From positions 1 to 27,019 of IMG/VR virus record IMGVR_UViG_3300021364_000384: 27,019 bases of DNA; one strand, given 5' to 3'. The notes under the pieces were generated by a model that saw only the letters and a list, made by a program, of their open reading frames with translations, was not told where the DNA came from and did no database searches. Of the stretch, positions 14,574 through 25,783 are shown piece by piece. This DNA is from a virus. Position 1 is the stretch's first letter; every line of letters starts with the position of its first letter. The translations under genes and the position numbers were made by a program.

Positions 14574-17522
14574 ATGGCAAGGAAAAGAAAAAACAATCTA
14601 AAAGATATAATGGATGTAATTACTAGAACAGCTTTTCAAAAAGGCGGACCTAGTTATGGTGATGTACCTCCCGGTACAAAACCCGGTTTTGGTGGAACAG
14701 AACCAGATGTAGGTGATAAGCCTATTATTATTGATACTCCAGAACCTAGCCCAGCTCCTTCTCCAACACCAGCTCCAAGCCCTACACCAGCTCCTTCTCC
14801 AACACCGGCTCCAAGCCCTACACCATCTCCAGCACCGGGACCTAGACCAACTCCAGCACCGGGACCTCAACAACAAACTACAGGTGTCGATATAGGTGGC
14901 GAAGGTTATGCTTACAAACCACCACTGTTAGAAGGTAGAACCCCATCAGATAATATTTATGACTATTACACACCATTTGGTGATAAACCAACAGATGCTG
15001 GTATGTCTCTGGCAGAAATGCAAAGACAATACAGAGCTAGAGGAGCTGGAGAACTATTAGATAAAATTTCTAAAGGACAAATAAATTTAGCAGATTTAGG
15101 TCTTGAAGCAAAAGCAGCTTTACTTGGTCAAGCTTATGAAGATGAAATTATTCCATCAGGAACAGGTATTATATCTGAAGATGTTGACTTAGCTTTAAGA
15201 GCAGCAGCAGATATTCGTAGCAAACCTTTAGCTCAAGGAGAATCTGCTAAAGCAAGATTACCGGCTCGAAGAGCTGTAGTAAAAATGGAAGCATCTGAAA
15301 TAGAAGATACTCCAGACTTTGAAGCAGCTTATGGTCAGTTATCTGATGATTCAAAAATGAAAGTTCAAGAAATTAGAAAACTTTCAGGTCCTGCTCAAGC
15401 AGCACAAATTACTAGACAGGCTGTTGAATCTTCTAAAGCAGCAACAGTTGATGCAGCAATATCATCTGGAGCTTTTGTTCCTGAAGTTGTTGGAGTAGCT
15501 GCTCAATTATCTCAAACACCTCAAGCTGAAATAAGAGAAAGAGAAGCTATCACAGGCGAAGCAGCAACAGGCATGGCTGCTGAAATAATTAATAAAGCAG
15601 GTTTTGAAGCTGCACAAAGAAGAACAGTAAAAGGTGAAGCAGCTAAAAGTGCTGCCACACAAATGATAGCAGAAACTGCTGATGTTCCTCAAGACATCGC
15701 AGCAGCTATTGTTGATGACCCTGCAACTGTTACAGCACAATTAGATACAGCAGACACAAATGTACAAGCAGCTGTCGCAGCATTACCAACCGAAGCTTTA
15801 GTATCTTCACAGATGGAAGCATTGCTTGGTGGTCTCGAATCAGGTGAAGTACCTTTATGGGCTAAACCAGCTGTCGATACTGTTAATAGCATTATGGCTC
15901 AAAGAGGTATATTAGCTTCGACAGTAGCAAGAGATTCTTTATTTAATGCTATTATTCAAAGTGCTTTGCCTATGGCACAGTCCAATGCTCAAGCTATACA
16001 GCAAAGAGCTGCACAGAATCTTAGCAACGAACAACAAGCAAATCTTCAAGCTGCTCAACAAGACCAACAAGTAAGATTACAAAACTTAAGTAATAGACAA
16101 ACAGCCGAAAGTCAATCAGCACAGTTTGCTCAAGAACTAAAAGTCTTAACAGGTCAGTTTGAACAACAAGCTGTTTTAACAACAGAACAACAAGAACAAC
16201 AAGTACGAATAGCTAACTTACAAAATAGACAACAAGCAGCAACACTTAATGCTCAACAAAAACAGGCTATGGATGCTCTAAATCTTAACAATGAGCAACA
16301 AGTAGAATTAGCTAATCTGCAAATCATGAATGAAACAGAACGTGAAAACATGTCTGCAGAACAACAATCAAGATTAGTTGAATATCAAATAGCAGCTGAC
16401 TTCTTATCTAAGAATGCTGCCTTTAAACAAGATATGGAAAAATCTAATCTATCGGCTGAACAGCAAATTAGATTAGCAAACTTAACTGCTCAAAACCAAG
16501 CAGAAGCACAAAACTTATCAGCAGCACAGCAAACTGAACTAGCTAATTTAACAGCTAGAATGAACATGAACATTAAGAATGCTGAACTTGCTCAACAGAT
16601 GGGTATAGCAAATCTTAATGCTGCTCAACAAAGAGCTATGTCTAATGCTAACATGATAGCTAATATGGACATGGCTAAGTTTAACAATGCTCAACAAGTT
16701 GAATTGGCTAATAGTAAATTTATGCAAAGTGCAACTTTAGCAAACTTTAATGCCGAGCAACAATCGGTTATGCAAAATGCTACAGCACTAGCTCAGTTAG
16801 ATTTAGCTGCAGTTGACCAAAGAACTAAAGTAGCTGCTCAACATGCTCAAGCATTTTTACAAATGGATATGACTAATGTAAGCAATGAACAACAAGCTGT
16901 TATTCTAAAAGCTCAACAAGAGCAACAGGCTTTATTGTCTAATCAGTCGTATCAAAATGCAGCTGCTCAGTTTAATGCTCAAAATGAAAACCAATTAAAT
17001 CAGTTCTGGGCAAACTTAGGAGCACAAATGAATCAATACAACGCAAGTCAGCAAAATGCTATGAGACAATTTAATGCTGCTCAATACAATCAGAAAAAAG
17101 CACAAGAGCTTGGTATCGAAGCAGATTTAAATAAGTTTAATGCACAGTTAGCAGCAAGTATTGACCAAGCTAAAATGAATCAAGAGTTTTCTAGAGAAAC
17201 TTTCAATGCTCAAAATGCTATGATAATCGAACAGTCAAATGTTGAATGGCGAAGAAAAATATCAACAATGGATACCGCAGCACAAAACCAAGTAAATATG
17301 ATGAATGCTCAGAATGCTTTTGGTTTAACAAGTACAGCATTGGCTACATCTTGGCAGGAGCTTAGAGATGAATTTGACTACATATTCAAGTCTTCAGAGA
17401 ATGCCAAGGATAGAGATGCTAACATTGCTGTTGCAGGTATGCAAGGTGGTGATAACAGTGCACTACAAGATAATGCACATTTAGTTAGGTTACAAAACTT
17501 TTTAGCACTATTCCAAAAATAA
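14574..17522 (+). CDS. Internal virion protein with proline-rich linker and 41-unit hendecad array
   Basis: A 982-residue protein, probably internal to the virion and released on infection, from its place at the head of the ejection block. Residues 1-50 are basic, then Gly-rich. Residues 56-99 are a (PAPSPT)-type extended linker. Residues about 145-470 are Ala-rich helices. Residues 471-921 are 41 consecutive eleven-residue units with no insertion or deletion, of consensus NL-x-x-x-QQ-x-x-LA; Asn opens 28 of 41 units and Gln occupies the sixth place in 21. The C-terminal 60 residues are mixed and lack the pattern. Gln and Asn are very abundant and Cys is absent. A ribosome site AAGGA precedes the ATG. 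It has no sequence likeness I recognise to T7 core proteins; the ejection role is inferred from position and helical architecture. Confidence 0.8.
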   Translation: MARKRKNNLKDIMDVITRTAFQKGGPSYGDVPPGTKPGFGGTEPDVGDKPIIIDTPEPSPAPSPTPAPSPTPAPSPTPAPSPTPSPAPGPRPTPAPGPQQQTTGVDIGGEGYAYKPPLLEGRTPSDNIYDYYTPFGDKPTDAGMSLAEMQRQYRARGAGELLDKISKGQINLADLGLEAKAALLGQAYEDEIIPSGTGIISEDVDLALRAAADIRSKPLAQGESAKARLPARRAVVKMEASEIEDTPDFEAAYGQLSDDSKMKVQEIRKLSGPAQAAQITRQAVESSKAATVDAAISSGAFVPEVVGVAAQLSQTPQAEIREREAITGEAATGMAAEIINKAGFEAAQRRTVKGEAAKSAATQMIAETADVPQDIAAAIVDDPATVTAQLDTADTNVQAAVAALPTEALVSSQMEALLGGLESGEVPLWAKPAVDTVNSIMAQRGILASTVARDSLFNAIIQSALPMAQSNAQAIQQRAAQNLSNEQQANLQAAQQDQQVRLQNLSNRQTAESQSAQFAQELKVLTGQFEQQAVLTTEQQEQQVRIANLQNRQQAATLNAQQKQAMDALNLNNEQQVELANLQIMNETERENMSAEQQSRLVEYQIAADFLSKNAAFKQDMEKSNLSAEQQIRLANLTAQNQAEAQNLSAAQQTELANLTARMNMNIKNAELAQQMGIANLNAAQQRAMSNANMIANMDMAKFNNAQQVELANSKFMQSATLANFNAEQQSVMQNATALAQLDLAAVDQRTKVAAQHAQAFLQMDMTNVSNEQQAVILKAQQEQQALLSNQSYQNAAAQFNAQNENQLNQFWANLGAQMNQYNASQQNAMRQFNAAQYNQKKAQELGIEADLNKFNAQLAASIDQAKMNQEFSRETFNAQNAMIIEQSNVEWRRKISTMDTAAQNQVNMMNAQNAFGLTSTALATSWQELRDEFDYIFKSSENAKDRDANIAVAGMQGGDNSALQDNAHLVRLQNFLALFQK
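14751..14870 (+). repeat. Proline-rich 36-base repeats
   Basis: Two near-identical 36-base units (14751-14786 and 14787-14822, one visible difference) encode PAPSPTPAPSPT twice. Degenerate PAPGP-type units follow up to about 14870. The near identity of the DNA suggests recent duplication, unlike the hendecad array in the same gene. The product is an extended, rigid or flexible linker. Confidence 0.85.
15984..17336 (+). repeat. Array of 41 eleven-residue (33-base) helical repeats
   Basis: Residues 471-921 of the 982-residue protein divide without a single break into 41 units of eleven residues, from NAQAIQQRAAQ to NAQNAFGLTST. Typical units are NLNNEQQVELA, NLSAEQQIRLA and NLSAAQQTELA. Codons differ freely between units, so the register is kept by selection on protein, not by recent DNA duplication. 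The hydrophobic places (2 and 10) with Gln at 6 give the 3-4-4 spacing of hendecad coiled coils. Confidence 0.9.
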
Positions 17523-17543: not shown

Positions 17544-18938
17544 ATGGGATATTTAAAAAAACAATTTAAAAAAATATTTAAAGGAATTAAAAAAACTTTA
17601 GCACCTATAGGTAAAGCATTGAAAAATGGTTTAGGAGAAGTAGGTAAGTTTTTTGGTAGTATGGGTCCTTTAGGTACTTTAGCACTTACTTTGATGCTTC
17701 CGGGAATAGGAGCTGCGTGGACGAGCTTTGGAGCTTGGGCAGGAGCACAAGGAGGCTTAATAGGTGGTGTTATGAATGGTATCGCTCAAGCAGGTAATTT
17801 AGCTGGTAAAGTTTATTCTTCTGTTAGTGGAATGATAAGTGATACTGTTGGTACTATTGCTGGTAATACTATTGGTAAAATACCTGTTGGTGCTAATAGA
17901 AACTTAACAGATGTTTATAATGGTTTTACAAAGTTTGTTGGTAATAAATTAGATGATGTTAGAATGGCTCTAAATCTTCCAACCTCTAATATTACTGCCG
18001 AAACTATAGCAGCCGATGCAGCTAAACTAGATGGTGAATTAGTAGATAGAGGATATACAGAATCAATAGATATAAAACCACCAAGTTTGTTAGAACCAGA
18101 TATCAAATCTCCAAAATTAACAGGTAATTATTTAGATGACCCAATTAATGCTAAAATGAATAAATTTAAAGCAGAAGATTGGGATGAGCTAGGTATTGAC
18201 CCGTTTGTTGATAGAGATTTTACTCAAGCCGAATTAAATAAAATTAAAGATTTTAAACCTGATGTGTTTGGGCAAATAGACTCTACACCAGAATTTGAAA
18301 TAAAACCGATGGCTAATCGTCAAGCTGAACTAGATAGAATAAAATTAGAAGCTGAAGATAATTTAACAGATGTTGTTGTTGGTTTTGATAAAAATGTTAA
18401 ATATGTTGGAGCTGATGGTAAAGAAATATTTGAACTTACACCACAATATAGAAGTGTTCCAACAAATATTCTTTCTGATGAACAAATAAAACTTAACAAT
18501 CGTTTAAATAATTTTACTGATTATAATAATAAAAGGATTGCAGGTTTTGAAAGTTTTGCTGGTAAAGAAGGTTTAGACAATATAGGTGCAGATAAAGTTT
18601 CACAAGTTATGGCTCAATACGATGCTAGTCGTATGGCAGAAGTAGGTAGTGGGTTTATGGGAGTTCAAACTAGCTTAGATGAAATGAGTGCAGGTCAAGA
18701 AGTTGTTGGCGGTGGCGGATATATTAATGTTCCACCTTTACAAACAGATACAAGTTCTTATAATGATTATAGCAGAAATGTATATCCTACCTATGTTCAA
18801 AATGGTTACAGAGGAGCACCTAATATACAAAACATGTATGAAGCAGGATATTATGGCGATGATGTCTTTTCAAAGTTTATGAGAGATTTTAAAGCTTATC
18901 AAATCCCAACACCTACAGTATCTTTAGGAGGACAATAA
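17544..18938 (+). CDS. Candidate ejection protein with cationic amphipathic N-terminus
   Basis: A 464-residue protein. Residues 1-35 are strongly basic (ten Lys, one Glu) with an amphipathic helix pattern, opening MGYLKKQFKKIFKGIKKTL. A hydrophobic Gly/Ala-rich region follows (about 39-85, with MGPLGTLALTLMLPGIGAAW), then a second Gly-rich stretch to about 115. This looks membrane-active. The remainder is AT-rich, acidic and of unknown fold, ending in a Tyr-rich region (about 400-464). I recall similarly built proteins encoded after NAQQ-repeat proteins in marine phages. A role in the envelope channel formed on infection is likely but inferred. The ribosome site GGAGG is strong and well spaced. 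The next gene begins one base after its stop. Confidence 0.75.
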   Translation: MGYLKKQFKKIFKGIKKTLAPIGKALKNGLGEVGKFFGSMGPLGTLALTLMLPGIGAAWTSFGAWAGAQGGLIGGVMNGIAQAGNLAGKVYSSVSGMISDTVGTIAGNTIGKIPVGANRNLTDVYNGFTKFVGNKLDDVRMALNLPTSNITAETIAADAAKLDGELVDRGYTESIDIKPPSLLEPDIKSPKLTGNYLDDPINAKMNKFKAEDWDELGIDPFVDRDFTQAELNKIKDFKPDVFGQIDSTPEFEIKPMANRQAELDRIKLEAEDNLTDVVVGFDKNVKYVGADGKEIFELTPQYRSVPTNILSDEQIKLNNRLNNFTDYNNKRIAGFESFAGKEGLDNIGADKVSQVMAQYDASRMAEVGSGFMGVQTSLDEMSAGQEVVGGGGYINVPPLQTDTSSYNDYSRNVYPTYVQNGYRGAPNIQNMYEAGYYGDDVFSKFMRDFKAYQIPTPTVSLGGQ

Positions 18939-18939
18939 A

Positions 18940-19497
18940 ATGGCAGGTAGACAAGTATTATCTCAAGAGTCTTTACAGCAAATGATGGATTATGCTGGAC
19001 CAGTTCCGGGACAATCCTTAACAAACTCAACAGATGTTTCTTATGCATGGGAACAACCACCTCAGTTTACTAATAGACGTGAAGCTGAAATATATATCTT
19101 AGAAGAGCTTACAGAGAAAGAAGCTTTTAGACAAATAACAGATATGATTATTGAGGGTATTCCTATTGAATCTATTGCTAGAACATATCTCTTGTCTGGT
19201 TATTCAAGAGGTCTTTGGACTGTAGACATGATATTGTTATTGGCTGAATCTGTTGGTTTTATTATCATGGCTTTGGCTGAAAAAGCTGGATTAGACTATG
19301 AGTTATATACTGGTGAGAATCAAGAAGCTGATGCAGATAAAGAAGCAGAAGTAACAAATAAAGCTGTAGATATTATGAAGAATCAAATTAGAAAAGCAGC
19401 TTCACAAGATTTAAAAGCACCTGATTTTGTTAGTCCAGAATTAAATGAAGCAGTACAAGAAGTTGATGTAAAAAGTTTATTAGAGAGGAGTGAGTAA
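18940..19497 (+). CDS. Unknown protein in the ejection block
   Basis: A 185-residue protein I do not recognise. The first 45 residues are polar and probably extended (SQESLQQMMDYAGPVPGQSL), followed by charged helices. A moderately hydrophobic stretch lies near residues 91-115 (LWTVDMILLLAESVGFIIMA), which could be one membrane segment or a buried helix. The C-terminal third is highly charged and acidic. Its place between two candidate ejection proteins and the tight spacing (one base upstream, two bases downstream) suggest that it is part of the same virion assembly. Its size and single hydrophobic helix are reminiscent of T7 gp14, but that likeness is in layout only. Confidence 0.65.
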   Translation: MAGRQVLSQESLQQMMDYAGPVPGQSLTNSTDVSYAWEQPPQFTNRREAEIYILEELTEKEAFRQITDMIIEGIPIESIARTYLLSGYSRGLWTVDMILLLAESVGFIIMALAEKAGLDYELYTGENQEADADKEAEVTNKAVDIMKNQIRKAASQDLKAPDFVSPELNEAVQEVDVKSLLERSE

Positions 19498-19499
19498 TA

Positions 19500-21884
19500 A
19501 TGAAAGCATATAAACCCGGTGATATATATAAAACAAACCCTATTTTAAGAAGGGCTACTGGTCAAGATAAAACTAACTTTGATAAATTTTTAGAAGTTGC
19601 TGGTACTGTTAAAAGTAGTGTTGAGAATATATTCAACAATAGAATAGCCGACAACATTCAAAGGCTAGAAGAAGAAAAAGAATTTGACAAGATTAATGCC
19701 AAGGCACAATTAGCTCATTTAAGTCAGTTTGGTAATATCCAAAAAGACATCGAAACAAAATACAAAAATGATGTTAATGCTTGGGCTAGAGACTATGCTA
19801 GAGAAGAAGTTGATGATGACTTTATTAGAAAACAAGGCATGAACATGTCTCCAGAAGATTTAAATAATGTTGTCAAGCAACCTACAGCAGCTTATGGTGA
19901 TTATCTCAAAAATAGAGAAGAAGAACTCGTCAATGCTTATAATGCTATTTTAGGCGATTTAGATAGCCTTGGAGTTCCTTACAGAGATTTAGATGCTTCA
20001 AAGAAATTTATTGATGAATCTTACGAAAACATATTTAACAATATGGAAGATGATAATAGATTTAATCTAATAGGAGGTATTGGTTCATTTTTAAGAGGTA
20101 ATGGTTTCAATACTACTGATTATAATGAACTTGCAAAACAATATGAAAAGAATGCATTTCAAGCTAAATTGTCTGATATTGAAGATGTAAATAATAAATT
20201 TAAATCTTTATATGCTATGTCTCCTGCATTAGCTGCACAATTTGAAAAGACTGTAGAAAGTATTGATTATAAAGTTATGGGTGAAACAAAACTTGATGTT
20301 CAGCAATTACCTGATGGTGCTGGTATTATAGTAACAAACATACAAAACTATACAGATAAAAATGGTAATCCTCAAATGGTACAAAAACAAGAGGTTATTA
20401 CTAATCCAGCTCAAATAGAAATAATAAATCAAAAATCAAAAACTTTTGAGGCTCAACAAAACTATATGGAATTTTTAACTCCAAAAGGTCAAGAAGTATT
20501 TACAAACAATCTTAAAGATAAAGAACAAACTATTCATGATGCATTTTTGAATGTTCCACCAGAACATAAAATTCCTTATGATGAAGTTATAGCCAGAGCA
20601 ACTTATGAAAAAAATCTAGGAGCTATTGTTGGTTCATATGATGATATTATGGAACAAAAGTTTTATGAAAAAGATTCGTTAGGAAGAATGGTAGCTATCC
20701 CAGTTCTACAAGCTTATATTAATGGTACAGGTCCTAAACCAGCTGGATATTATGATACTCCTTATGAATTTGCAAAGTCCTTAATACCTAATTTGAATTT
20801 AGGAGATTTTAATAGAATTGTATATCCAGATACTGAGACAACAACAACTCAGCCTTATTCTAATTCTTATCAAGTTGAGATGGAAACAGCAGCGGATAAT
20901 GATGTCGTAATGGTAGTAGATGAAGTTAAACAAGCATTATTTAATGGTGATGATGCTAAGATAGCTGATTATCAATCATCATTTGAAGGAGGCTCTTCAT
21001 TAAAAGGTGTTGATAAAGAAGGTAATTATTTTGGTGATGGAGCTTCTACTTTTAGTGGTACTCCAGAACAAGTTATAGCTGCATTGCCTCAATTATCAGA
21101 TACTATTCTAAACAATTCTGCATTAGCTCAATCAAAAATAGTTAGTGTTGGTTATAATATTAAAGACGATAGAATTGTTCTTAAACCCGGAAGTGCTATG
21201 ATGGACGTAGGAGAAGGCGAAGGAACATCTGAAGAATTAACTCAATTTGATAAAAGAAGAAGAATATTAGAAACTAGATTAGAAGAAGCCGAATTTTTAA
21301 ATCAAGATAAAAAAGTTTCTTTGCTTAAAAATCAATTAGAAGAACTAGGGATTATAGAAGAAAGAGCAAAAGCTCGTGATGAAAAACTAGAATTTGAAAA
21401 AGGCGGTTTAATGAAAGATAAAGCTGCAGGTCGAAATATCACTGACGAAGCTATTGAACAAGTTGCTATGGGTGATAAAGCTGTAGAAACATTTTTAACT
21501 GAAATTGCTAATATTGAATCTAAATTTGGTAGAGATAATAATACTTTTAAAGGAGCTTCTAAAGGTATCTTTCAAATTGACCCTATAGCCTTTGAAGAAG
21601 TTCAACGAAGACTTGAAGAAACCAATGAAAAAGACGGAGCTACAACAAGACTTTACAATGAACAACTCAAGCAAAACTTAGACCTTGATTTATCTCAGTT
21701 AAGTTATCAAGATTTAGATAAACCATTAGTCGGAGCTGCTTTTGCTAGAGCTTATCTTCTAGGTTTCGCAGAAGCTATTCCTGAAACTGTACTTGGTAGA
21801 GCTAAATATTGGAAAAAATATTATAATACTGAAGCAGGTAAAGGCACAGCTGAAAAATATCTGAAAGAAAACACTCGTTTATAA
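19500..21884 (+). CDS. Internal virion protein with C-terminal lytic-transglycosylase-like domain
   Basis: A 794-residue protein. Residues 1 to about 640 are mainly helical and charged, with no clear motif, and resemble a core protein. The last 138 residues carry a lysozyme-like fold: a candidate catalytic Glu at E673 in EIANIESKFG, followed by GASKGIFQIDP (685-695), which matches the G-A-x-G-x-F/L-Q-I motif of SLT-type lytic transglycosylases, and a Tyr/Trp-rich ending (AKYWKKYYNTEAGKG). It should cut peptidoglycan glycan strands locally when the phage injects DNA, not at lysis, because it sits among virion genes and a separate endolysin exists. The ribosome site GAGAGGAG lies within the end of the previous gene. 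The next gene starts two bases after its stop. Confidence 0.82.
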   Translation: MKAYKPGDIYKTNPILRRATGQDKTNFDKFLEVAGTVKSSVENIFNNRIADNIQRLEEEKEFDKINAKAQLAHLSQFGNIQKDIETKYKNDVNAWARDYAREEVDDDFIRKQGMNMSPEDLNNVVKQPTAAYGDYLKNREEELVNAYNAILGDLDSLGVPYRDLDASKKFIDESYENIFNNMEDDNRFNLIGGIGSFLRGNGFNTTDYNELAKQYEKNAFQAKLSDIEDVNNKFKSLYAMSPALAAQFEKTVESIDYKVMGETKLDVQQLPDGAGIIVTNIQNYTDKNGNPQMVQKQEVITNPAQIEIINQKSKTFEAQQNYMEFLTPKGQEVFTNNLKDKEQTIHDAFLNVPPEHKIPYDEVIARATYEKNLGAIVGSYDDIMEQKFYEKDSLGRMVAIPVLQAYINGTGPKPAGYYDTPYEFAKSLIPNLNLGDFNRIVYPDTETTTTQPYSNSYQVEMETAADNDVVMVVDEVKQALFNGDDAKIADYQSSFEGGSSLKGVDKEGNYFGDGASTFSGTPEQVIAALPQLSDTILNNSALAQSKIVSVGYNIKDDRIVLKPGSAMMDVGEGEGTSEELTQFDKRRRILETRLEEAEFLNQDKKVSLLKNQLEELGIIEERAKARDEKLEFEKGGLMKDKAAGRNITDEAIEQVAMGDKAVETFLTEIANIESKFGRDNNTFKGASKGIFQIDPIAFEEVQRRLEETNEKDGATTRLYNEQLKQNLDLDLSQLSYQDLDKPLVGAAFARAYLLGFAEAIPETVLGRAKYWKKYYNTEAGKGTAEKYLKENTRL

Positions 21885-21886
21885 TA

Positions 21887-24800
21887 ATGTCTATAGAAGA
21901 CTTAAGACAAAATGTCAAACCTACGACAGGAATAGAAGCCTTAAGACAAGGACCTTCTTCTGTTATGTCGGAAGATGAAGCAATTCAATATGCCTTAAAA
22001 ATGGGTTTCACAGACTCATGGCGAGGCATACAGCAAATGTACGGACAAATCACAGGCTCCGATGACCTTTTAGAAAAACTATCTGCTAAAAATAAAAAGC
22101 TTGAAGAAATATTTAAAAATCCTGAATATGGCGACAAAGCTTTTGGTTTTTATTTAGGTGGTGCTTTTGGCGACCCTATAGGCTTTATACCCTTTTTAGG
22201 CTGGGGTAAAAAAATAAATGGTATAGGTAAAGCTACAGCATTTGGTACAGGAGTAGGAGCTTTTCAAAGTGGTATTGCTTATACACCAGAAGAGCAAGAC
22301 AGAGGTATGAATGCTCTTACAGGAGGTACAATAGGTGGTGTTTTAGGTTTGGGTGGTTCAGGTATTGCTCAAGCGATAGCAAAAGCTAAAGGTGCTAAAC
22401 CTATGAAGTTTGCTAGAACAACAAGGCAAAGACAAGAAGATATTATTGAAGAACAAGCTAATCTCGTCAAATCAGGACAGGCTGTTTCATCAGAAAAAGA
22501 AATAGAAGAATTAACAAGAAAAACTTTAGAAGAATATAAAAAAGCTCCTAAAAAAACTTTAGGTACCAATATAGAGAAATTCTGGGCTGATAATGTTGGC
22601 GATAAAGTTTGGGACCTTGTAGGTAAAAACTGGGGTTCTGCTTTAGCTGGTACATTTGGTAGTGTTGCTGGTTATAATGCATGGAATGACCCAGAGTCTA
22701 CTGAAGCCGAAAAAATGTTTGCTGCTTTTTTAATGGGAGCAGGAGGTATAGGTGTAACCAAACTAGGAGGTCAAATACCTGTAGGCGATATCAAGCTAAA
22801 AGAATTAATGGCTAAAGGATTGGTCGATAATTATGGTTTACCTAAAGAATACCTTGCTCTTAAAAAAGGCACGTTTGGTGAGGTAAATGCTTTATCTACT
22901 AAATTTGCAGAAGCCTCTAAACTTATTTCTACACTTCCTAAAAAAGAAAGAAAAATCGTCAATGCTATGATTACAGGCGATTTAGATTCTTTAACCAATA
23001 AAGACCTTGTTGGTTTCTCACAAAAATCCAGAGACATTATAGACAAGACAGGACAAGAGCTTGTTGATGTTGGTTTATTATCAGAAAAAGTTTATAGAAA
23101 AAATGTTGGTAAATATTTACACAGAAGCTATACAAAGCATTTAAAAGGTGAATCTCCTCAAGAGGCTGTACGAGGAGCTAGATATTTAAAGATAATTGGC
23201 GATGAATTAAGACCAAGAGGATACAGCAAAACCATTGACCAAAAAACATATTTAAGAGAAATAGACAACTACAAAGAATGGGAAGTTGTTGATGAATTTA
23301 CAGTTGGTAAAGGTAAAAAACAAAAAACTCGTGTAACTTTAAGAAGAGATTTAACAAAAGCAGAAAGACAAGCGAGAGGCGAAATAGAAGATGCAGCCTT
23401 TAATGTTGCTGAGACTGGTCGAGTAATGACCAATGATTTAGCAGTCTATAAGCTTTATTCTAATGTATCTAAAAATAATAACTTTGCTTTAGATGAAAAA
23501 TTATTTGAACAAAAATTATTAGCTGGAGAACTAAGAGAGCAAGATTGGGTACAAATGCCTGACACCATTGTTCGTGGTTTAAAGTTTGGTAAGAATCCTG
23601 TTAAAACTTACGGACAACTTGCTAATAAATTTGTACCAAAAGAAATACACGATGATTTAGTCAAGATAAATGCTTTTAAAGAAAAAGAAACTAAAAATGT
23701 CTTTGATGCCTATTTAGATATTAACAGATTTTGGAAGAAATCTAAAACTGCTTGGAATCCGACAGTTCATGTCAACAATACAATATCTAATGTTCTGTTA
23801 ATGGACTTTGCTGGAGGCTCCTATAAAGCTATTCCTAAAGGCTATTCTGAGCTTTTAAAAGGCTTAGATGGAGACCCTAAAGCAACTATGTATAAACTTG
23901 CAAAGGAATACGGAGTATTTGATGTTGACTTAGTATCCAAAGAATTAACAGGTGACACAAGAGATGCCTTACAAAAAGTATTAAGAGAACTAGCTGATGA
24001 GGGTAGTTTAGAACTAAAAAATGCTACCGAATATAGTAAAAAATTATATCAAAGACTAGCTGAGAAAGGCTATGAAATGACTGCTGGTAAATTAGAAAAG
24101 TTTTATCAGTTAGAAGACCAAGTCTTTAGAATGGGCTTATTTATTGACAGGCTTGAAAAGGGCTTTGATGTCAATAAAGCAGCAGCTGATGCTAAAAAGT
24201 GGTTCATAGACTACGATATCAATGCACCATTTATAGACTTTATGCGTAGAGCACCTACACCTTTCATATCCTATACATATCGTGTTGTACCTCTGTTAGC
24301 AGAGGCAGCAGTTTATAGACCTTGGAAGTTCGCTAAATGGGCTGCCATAGGTTATGGAATGAATGAAGTAGGTAAAGGTAAAATACCTTTTGCTGAAGCA
24401 ATTAGTGAAGACCCAGACTTCGGTAGAATTAAAGAAGAGATAGGCAACGAAGAAGCAGAAAGACTTTTAATGCGTAAAAACATGCAGGATAAACTATTTG
24501 GTTTGCCTTTTATGCCTGAAACATTAATTAAGACTCCATTTGCTTCTGGTATTTCAGAAAGAAAAGGAGAAGAAGTACCACTATATATTGATGTTAAACG
24601 TTTCATTCCCGGTGGTGATGTGCTTAATGTTGGTGATAAGGGCTTTGGTATTCCATTAGACTTCTTAGGCTTTAAAGATAAACAAATAGATTTACCAACT
24701 GTATTATCACCTAACTTTGGTGCAGCTGGTGAAATCATGATTCCTATACTTACTGGAGTAGACCCATTTACTAAACAAAAAATAGATGGGTTAGGTTTAG

Positions 24801-25783
24801 GAAATGATGGTGCAGTCTTAACACAACACATACTTAATAGACTTATACCTAATATTCCAACGTCAGCATTTACAGTTCCTTTCTTAGGACCAGATAATGT
24901 TATTGATGACTATAGTCCGTTTAAAAATTCTTTCGGTTCTAAAAAGATTCAAGAAGCATTTAGACAAGCTAGAGATGGTACTCAAGAAGAATACGGAACT
25001 GAGTTTAGCCCATTTGAAGCTATACTGAGTACCTTTGGTTTTAAACTTACACCTGTCGAGGTTGAAAAGCTATTAGGTATTAAGAGTGTAGAATTTAGAA
25101 AACAATATGGCGAAATGAGACAGTCTATTTATGCTATACAAAGACAAATAGTTGAAGGTAAATTAAGTAAAGAAGCAGGTGAAAAGCAAATAAATGATTT
25201 AGTTGAAAAAATAGAAACCTTAGCAAATAGATTAGAACTAACTGAGACAAGATTTAGAGAACTAAAAAGAACAGGTGGTCTTGTTAGTGACGTTGAAGAA
25301 GACCCAGCAGACCGAACAAATCCTTACACAGGAGTAAGCTATGCTGATACAGCAGATGTATTTACACAGATGGAAAAAGCTTTAAAAGAAATGCAAGAAG
25401 AAACAGAAAAGATAGCTCCTATTGATAGCCAAATGAGTCAGCTAAGAACAAATTTTTTTGAAGGTACAACACCTGATATGATTAATTTTAAATTTTTAAA
25501 CGATTGGCATGAAACAAATTTTACAGATGTAGATGAATTTAAAGGAACTTTAGATAAACAATTAAAAGGGAAAAAAGTTTCTATGAGATTAAGTACTTTT
25601 GAAATAGATGGTAAAACTTATATTCTACCTACTTATGCAAAAGGTATTGGTAAAATATTAGCTGACGAAACATTTAAACAAGATATTAAAGATGGTAAAA
25701 TAATAGGATATGAAACAAAAGAGGAAGCTGACAAAAAATTAAGATTTTTAAGAAATAAAATTATTAATAAACAAAAACTATAA
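21887..25783 (+). CDS. Large internal (ejection) protein
   Basis: A 1298-residue protein, the largest after the fibre. The N-terminal 70 residues are helical. Residues about 85-165 and 248-292 are Gly-rich, hydrophobic stretches (for example GFYLGGAFGDPIGFIPFLGW) that could enter membranes. A long charged helical region follows. Residues about 773-826 contain APFIDFMRRAPTPFISYTYR and then a PLLAEAAVYRPWKFAKWAA segment; I recall this from large polyvalent-type phage core proteins (LPD38-like). The last 110 residues are compositionally different (very AT-rich) and contain IDGKTYILPTYAKG, resembling a small domain appended to many phage internal proteins. By size and position it corresponds to T7 gp16, but it has no transglycosylase motif of its own. 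Its stop overlaps the next start by one base. Confidence 0.78.
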   Translation: MSIEDLRQNVKPTTGIEALRQGPSSVMSEDEAIQYALKMGFTDSWRGIQQMYGQITGSDDLLEKLSAKNKKLEEIFKNPEYGDKAFGFYLGGAFGDPIGFIPFLGWGKKINGIGKATAFGTGVGAFQSGIAYTPEEQDRGMNALTGGTIGGVLGLGGSGIAQAIAKAKGAKPMKFARTTRQRQEDIIEEQANLVKSGQAVSSEKEIEELTRKTLEEYKKAPKKTLGTNIEKFWADNVGDKVWDLVGKNWGSALAGTFGSVAGYNAWNDPESTEAEKMFAAFLMGAGGIGVTKLGGQIPVGDIKLKELMAKGLVDNYGLPKEYLALKKGTFGEVNALSTKFAEASKLISTLPKKERKIVNAMITGDLDSLTNKDLVGFSQKSRDIIDKTGQELVDVGLLSEKVYRKNVGKYLHRSYTKHLKGESPQEAVRGARYLKIIGDELRPRGYSKTIDQKTYLREIDNYKEWEVVDEFTVGKGKKQKTRVTLRRDLTKAERQARGEIEDAAFNVAETGRVMTNDLAVYKLYSNVSKNNNFALDEKLFEQKLLAGELREQDWVQMPDTIVRGLKFGKNPVKTYGQLANKFVPKEIHDDLVKINAFKEKETKNVFDAYLDINRFWKKSKTAWNPTVHVNNTISNVLLMDFAGGSYKAIPKGYSELLKGLDGDPKATMYKLAKEYGVFDVDLVSKELTGDTRDALQKVLRELADEGSLELKNATEYSKKLYQRLAEKGYEMTAGKLEKFYQLEDQVFRMGLFIDRLEKGFDVNKAAADAKKWFIDYDINAPFIDFMRRAPTPFISYTYRVVPLLAEAAVYRPWKFAKWAAIGYGMNEVGKGKIPFAEAISEDPDFGRIKEEIGNEEAERLLMRKNMQDKLFGLPFMPETLIKTPFASGISERKGEEVPLYIDVKRFIPGGDVLNVGDKGFGIPLDFLGFKDKQIDLPTVLSPNFGAAGEIMIPILTGVDPFTKQKIDGLGLGNDGAVLTQHILNRLIPNIPTSAFTVPFLGPDNVIDDYSPFKNSFGSKKIQEAFRQARDGTQEEYGTEFSPFEAILSTFGFKLTPVEVEKLLGIKSVEFRKQYGEMRQSIYAIQRQIVEGKLSKEAGEKQINDLVEKIETLANRLELTETRFRELKRTGGLVSDVEEDPADRTNPYTGVSYADTADVFTQMEKALKEMQEETEKIAPIDSQMSQLRTNFFEGTTPDMINFKFLNDWHETNFTDVDEFKGTLDKQLKGKKVSMRLSTFEIDGKTYILPTYAKGIGKILADETFKQDIKDGKIIGYETKEEADKKLRFLRNKIINKQKL

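Follow-up and report, generated by a model that had tools for sequence, protein, structure and literature searches.

A 982-residue protein encoded in a 27-kb viral fragment carries 41 consecutive eleven-residue repeats (hendecads) in a single register, and it belongs to a family of HMO-2011-type podovirus proteins in which the length of such arrays varies widely while their phase stays fixed. We propose, with a probability of about 0.5, that these phages carry the array protein inside the virion and eject it as a pilot protein, which would work like the phiX174 H protein and pack its two-sided helices in a many-helix assembly. HMO-2011-type phages are widespread in the sea, with SAR116, Roseobacter and SAR11 bacteria as hosts. 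The stretch of DNA that was analysed (the window, 27,019 nucleotides, ~35% G+C) is a viral fragment from IMG/VR. Its closest relatives are the Pelagibacter phages HTVC103P, HTVC104P and HTVC115P, and a SAR11 host is therefore likely for the window phage, as judged from sequence similarity.

Register and faces of the hendecad array

The open reading frame of the array protein spans positions 14574–17522, on the + strand like all other features of the window described here, and homologues were found for it. Its residues 471–921 (15984–17336) divide exactly into 41 × 11 residues. An earlier note on this DNA had claimed that these units follow one another without a register break, and the claim is borne out by a leave-out sliding register scan, in which phase 0 wins every 44-residue segment overlapping the array. 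Identity within the array is 0.20 at lag 11 and 0.25 at lag 22, compared with a 99.9% shuffle maximum of 0.156. When modelled with an HMM in which slips are permitted, the array occupies residues 467–916 (40.9 units), which indicates that the last one or two of the 41 units are weak. The residue counts of the note were also reproduced, with Asn at place 1 in 28 of the units and, at place 6, Gln in 21 and either Gln or Asn in 28; place 7 is Gln in 23/41 units. Where the same amino acid recurs at lag 11, the codon is identical at 53 of 90 positions, against 53.2 expected from codon usage. There is thus no residual recent DNA repeat, and the register is kept by selection on the protein, as had been suggested.

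The N-terminal region of the protein is highly variable. It contains a Pro-rich, PAPSPTP-type segment with a tandem repeat (residues 57–100; 14742–14873), in place of which aligned relatives have Gly-rich or other linkers, or nothing. Alignments further define a conserved N-module (residues 395–466; 15756–15971), with the sequence ...ALVSSQMEALLGG...WAKPAV...ALPMAQ and an AlphaFold pLDDT of ~55–75, immediately upstream of the array, and a conserved C-module (residues 889–951; 17238–17426), with the sequence SNVEWRR...WQELRDEFDY...SSENAKDR. The C-terminal part of the array, approximately units 23–41 (16710–17336), is common to the whole family and is the sole array remnant in the shortest relatives.

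The helical nature of the array, assumed in the earlier note, is supported both by composition and by an all-helix AlphaFold2 model of low confidence. Among 63,158 array residues in the family there are eight Pro and no Cys, and 193 of 200 arrays lack Pro entirely. A β-solenoid, considered on account of power at period 2.2, was rejected given the near absence of Pro, the low Gly content, the abundance of Ala, Gln, Glu, Met and Leu, and the all-helix model. When the residues are placed on an 11/3 wheel, one hydrophobic lobe lies at ~98–164° (places 2 and 10, with Gln at place 6 between them) and a second lobe lies opposite, at ~262–327° (places 11, 4 and 8). The faces between the lobes are formed by amides (places 3 and 7) and by Asn plus charged residues (places 1, 5 and 9). 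At 3/11, the share of the periodic Fourier power is 0.00 both for the window and for the family, which excludes an ordinary one-sided amphipathic helix. The single Gln-containing core stripe at places 2, 6 and 10 that had been envisaged was consequently not confirmed, as a comparable 4/8/11 stripe runs along the opposite side and the 3/11 moment is close to zero. Two-sided helices of this kind should touch other helices on both sides, as in bundles, sheets or α-barrels.

Family distribution and steps in array length

Searches with tblastn returned homologues in 26 phage isolate records, all of them HMO-2011/CHOED/phiM6-type podoviruses, among which are phages of Pelagibacter, Roseobacter, Puniceispirillum, Vibrio, Aeromonas, Pseudoalteromonas, Rhizobium and Sinorhizobium. 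An alignment-based scan showed that at least 573 IMG/VR stretches encode relatives. The homologues are listed as hypothetical proteins, apart from that of MW202701 (L020:8359-10950), which carries an automatic ‘huntingtin’ annotation, probably because it is rich in Gln. Comparison of the array protein with Pfam, NCBIfam, PHROGs and PDB sequences gave no informative match. In the literature we found neither a description of the family nor virion proteomics for any of its members. A scan of GTDB genomes with P0001 returned no relative, suggesting that close kin have no prophage copy. The window protein has the features by which the family is defined, namely the N-module, a fixed-phase hendecad array and a C-module with SNVxWRR, followed by a gene for a 185-residue protein. 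HMO-2011 gene phage1322_25 and Vibrio phage CHOED_013 (hypothetical) are true homologues, alike in anchors, array and neighbours, although their arrays are shorter than that of the window (~23 and ~20 units, respectively, by HMM). The array protein of Roseobacter phage CRP-235 (L024:7477-10008) carries a LysM domain at its N-terminus and a Peptidase_S74 domain at its C-terminus, and the proteins of seven HMO-2011-like members (L013, L150, L168, L171, L174, L179 and L184) end in a CWVAREVYG tail that is preceded by a Gly-zipper-like GSAIGGLIGTLGSA.

Array length was measured between two conserved anchors, the P of SALPIAQ, which precedes the array, and the W of SNVxWRR, close to the end of the array. 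This distance equals 8 modulo 11 in 199 of 200 distinct arrays, and the only exception (L197) is one residue longer. The number of units between the anchors is 12–16 (23 arrays), 19–21 (86), 25, 27 (4), 28 (23 exact, with L197 one residue off), 30, 32, 38 (34, window included), 48 (13), 58 (8), 68, 78 (3) or 88; array sampling follows the search queries, and the sizes of clades are not to be over-read. The full array is about three units above the anchor count (41 for 38), so that the family ranges from ~15 to 91 units. Relatives with many indels that are not multiples of eleven, which the earlier note had named as evidence against its reading, were not seen. Many such indels do arise in wide pairwise alignments, where repeats are misaligned; close pairs and anchor distances give clean multiples.

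A FastTree tree of the flanking modules, which is approximate and includes the last nine units, requires 30 length changes, 16 of which amount to 10, 20, 30 or 40 units. Of 15 independent close pairs from the long-array group, 12 have a length difference that is a multiple of 10 units (110 residues). When the closest of these pairs are aligned, they prove to differ by one clean indel, of 110 or 330 residues, or by indels of 110 plus 220 residues, and the remaining close-pair indels measure 121, 121 and 66 residues, all multiples of 11. These clean indels hold between pairs that are 76–88% identical and are independent of the tree. All of them sit at least 223 residues before the W anchor, and the C-terminal stretch is thus constant in these pairs. 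The difference between 38- and 28-unit arrays is likewise exactly 110 residues. In the window, units 9–18 (residues 559–668; 16248–16577) comprise two 55-residue super-repeats and correspond to a block of ~110 residues that HTVC104P, a relative with 28 units, lacks. A fixed phase combined with length steps of 110 residues appears to be new.

Long arrays show a super-repeat of five hendecads (55 residues), with the consensus NLqEkNAADsA NMTAENQfRLq nLNtlVdfkkr NAqLaQQMeLA NLSnEQQmELA, and its subtypes alternate, which results in a period of 110 residues. The first unit of each five lacks the hydrophobic residues at places 8, 10 and 11, and the unit after each lapse opens with an N-cap-like [NS]-hydrophobic-[TS] motif. 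Long arrays are similar to themselves at lag 110, and nucleotide identity in their best 330-nt segment reaches up to 0.69 at lag 330 or 660. Both observations agree with an explanation in which the 110-residue steps are an artefact of recombination only, a 330-bp tandem block being gained or lost by unequal exchange and having no structural meaning. Such an explanation has a considerable chance of being correct, if somewhat short of even. However, identity at a lag of ten units is not raised in 38-unit arrays, and yet the 38/28-unit pairs show the same exact step; furthermore, steps of 55 residues would also be available but are absent among the 15 independent pairs. The preference for 110 residues may stem from pairs of hairpins, or it may simply show the block size on which unequal recombination acts.

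The AlphaFold2 model, calculated for a monomer with an alignment of 29 sequences, renders the window array entirely helical at low confidence (pLDDT ~40–65). The helix is broken at residues 528–536, 591–594, 646–649, 696–699 and 741–751, at or beside units 6, 11, 16, 21 and 26, i.e. five units apart. These predicted breaks match the 55-residue super-repeat, a pattern of the long arrays that was not given to the model, and the agreement is suggestive. A model raised in the earlier note, as an example of how the protein might extend on ejection, has the whole array as an unbroken coiled coil, straight or slightly right-handed, which crosses the periplasm as a rod or tube about 68 nm long. The absence of Pro and the strict modulo-11 phase would suit an uninterrupted helix, and the model draws the last 165 array residues (752–916) as a single helix of ~25 nm. 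Against this, array length varies about sixfold, and at 0.15 nm per residue straight rods would measure from 25 nm to 150 nm in related phages, the latter for ~91 units. The hydrophobic pattern moreover lapses once per 55 residues in long arrays, at the points where the model breaks, and the net amphipathic moment is zero. We therefore prefer a fold-back of the added blocks, and consider a single straight rod unlikely. A dependence of array length on the host, with the wide periplasm of SAR11 in mind, was rejected because the array of Pelagibacter phage HTVC033P is among the shorter ones.

Gene neighbourhood and comparison with known systems

The array gene is located in a late structural operon, after a tail-fibre gene with an S74 domain. 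It is followed by a gene for a 464-residue protein (17544–18938; homologues in 98 loci) with an N-terminal cationic amphipathic helix (MGYLKKQFKKIFKGIKK...) and a subsequent Gly-rich hydrophobic stretch, features that make this protein a candidate membrane-active ejected protein. Next comes the gene for the 185-residue partner (18940–19497), homologues of which were detected at 250 loci. At all 143 loci that were checked, the array gene has this partner no more than 2.4 kb downstream, and the two genes occur in nearly identical sets of isolate phages. The predicted structure of the partner has a confident helical core and represents a new fold, with no relative among solved structures. Its identification as T7 gp14 was rejected for lack of a match. 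A 794-residue protein (19500–21884; phrog_3108, function unknown) takes, by location and size, the position of T7 gp15. That of T7 gp16 is taken by a 1298-residue protein (21887–25783), which weakly matches phrog_342 (E = 2e-6), an internal virion protein family with an endolysin domain. The array gene occupies a position in the ejection gene cluster, as indicated by synteny and size and, as the sole profile match, by the weak hit to phrog_342. The structural or ejection neighbourhood proposed earlier is thus supported by gene order and by the genes in the gp15 and gp16 positions. In HTVC115P, a gene annotated as toxin-activating lysine-acyltransferase (L016:10732-11181) lies between the array gene and the 185-residue partner gene, and CRP-235 also has such a gene nearby.

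The adjoining S74-bearing fibre gene is also compatible with a location of the array protein outside the virion, as a trimeric tail needle or fibre shaft that is not ejected. A few members carry fibre-type C-terminal modules, which count against the pilot reading: an S74-type module is present in CRP-235 (by Pfam) and in L271 (by motif), and the CWVAREVYG tail in the seven members mentioned above. The best PHROG names for the S74 segment of CRP-235 mix DNA ejection protein and tail fibre. However, both ends of the array protein and its neighbours are kept across the 26 isolate records despite very different fibre genes, and, by inference, a helix that is two-sided and rich in amides does not resemble the known trimeric shafts. 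A fibre shaft is in our view quite unlikely. The ‘DNA ejection protein’ match of CRP-235 was in turn dropped as evidence for the pilot reading, as it sits in the C-terminal S74 domain and not in the array. A head-internal ruler or core scaffold, with array length setting the size of a virion part, is very improbable: variable numbers of 11-residue units are known from siphophage tape-measure proteins (PMC3271669), but the phages considered here are podoviruses with short tails, and, among a small number of isolates, array length showed no positive relation to genome size, with unit number running opposite to it (28 units at ~54 kb, 13–16 at 63–68 kb), and no link to capsid size, as MQM1, with its 70.6-nm capsid, is among those with shorter arrays.

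The statement in the earlier note that no described ejection protein is built in this way has to be revised, as hendecads are present in phiX174 H (PMC7354561) and 11-residue repeats in tape-measure proteins (PMC3271669). Residues 151–271 of H form a decameric tube of 17 nm with three hendecads and eleven heptads (PMC7354561; PDB code 4JPP), in which Gln, Asn or Arg occupies 18 of 23 inward places (PMC7354561). Its lag-11 identity exceeds that of shuffled sequences. H and the array protein are alike in their helical, Gln/Asn-rich hendecads, and the array helix also has an amide-rich face. They differ in that H, from an ssDNA phage, has three hendecads and then heptads over 121 residues, whereas the array proteins of these dsDNA podoviruses have 15–91 hendecads, and no sequence or profile relationship was detected between the two (hhalign probability 0.2%). 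Since H is partly hendecad and amide-lined, the array design nevertheless has a precedent. Siphophage tape-measure proteins share with the array family a helical structure and length changes in whole 11-residue units (PMC3271669), but they have Trp/Phe as marker residues and serve to set tail length in phages with long tails, whereas the array family has Asn/Gln markers, short tails and steps of 110 residues. Sf6 gp12 is a decameric channel, the stem of which accommodates the H structure (PMC4755594). The place in the late operon and the small/middle/large set of neighbours match those of T7 gp14-15-16, P22 gp7-20-16 and Sf6 gp12 (PMC8954989, PMC4755594). The ejection proteins of T7, P22 and P-SSP7 have no lag-11 repeat, P22 gp7 and gp20 gave no profile match with the array protein, and homology to a known ejection protein was not found beyond the S74 segment of one member. 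The elements of the array protein thus have precedents; the number of repeats is far above that of phiX174 H.

A possible role in genome entry

A pilot role is the best-supported reading, given the synteny, the helicity, the amide richness and the precedent of phiX174 H. The two-sided helices would line up next to one another as a many-helix bundle or barrel, not as a plain two-stranded coiled coil, and the amide face (places 3 and 7) would be a plausible DNA-contacting lining, as in the H tube. The C-terminal 13–19 hendecads may represent the ancestral, family-wide part, ~21–31 nm long if formed by one helix, and this constant part would be the better candidate for a continuous conduit. Longer members add, N-terminally, mostly blocks of 110 residues, each comprising a pair of 55-residue helical segments, and these blocks probably fold back rather than lengthen one straight rod. 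During genome entry, the array protein might act together with the 464-residue and 185-residue proteins and with the proteins in the gp15 and gp16 positions.

A more specific model is that of an expandable pilot, in which a conserved C-terminal hendecad helix of approximately envelope width is combined with a variable number of 110-residue hairpins (2 × 5 hendecads). These would have to be added in pairs to keep the up-down polarity, would pack in a two-sided, amide-lined manner and would unfold on ejection. We offer this model tentatively, as it is less likely to be right than wrong. If true, it would be a new principle for constructing DNA-delivery devices, in a marine phage group that ranks among the commonest.

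The array protein is a clear candidate for mediating the passage of DNA through the envelope in HMO-2011-type phages, and the 185-residue protein, uncharacterised so far, can be named as its partner, being encoded adjacent to it in all loci checked. The family follows a strict structural grammar, in which the phase is fixed modulo 11 and the length jumps between close relatives are mostly of 110 residues. These observations raise two questions: do dsDNA podoviruses have a counterpart to the hendecad, amide-lined conduit of the ssDNA phage phiX174, and would such a device still function when its length changes about sixfold?
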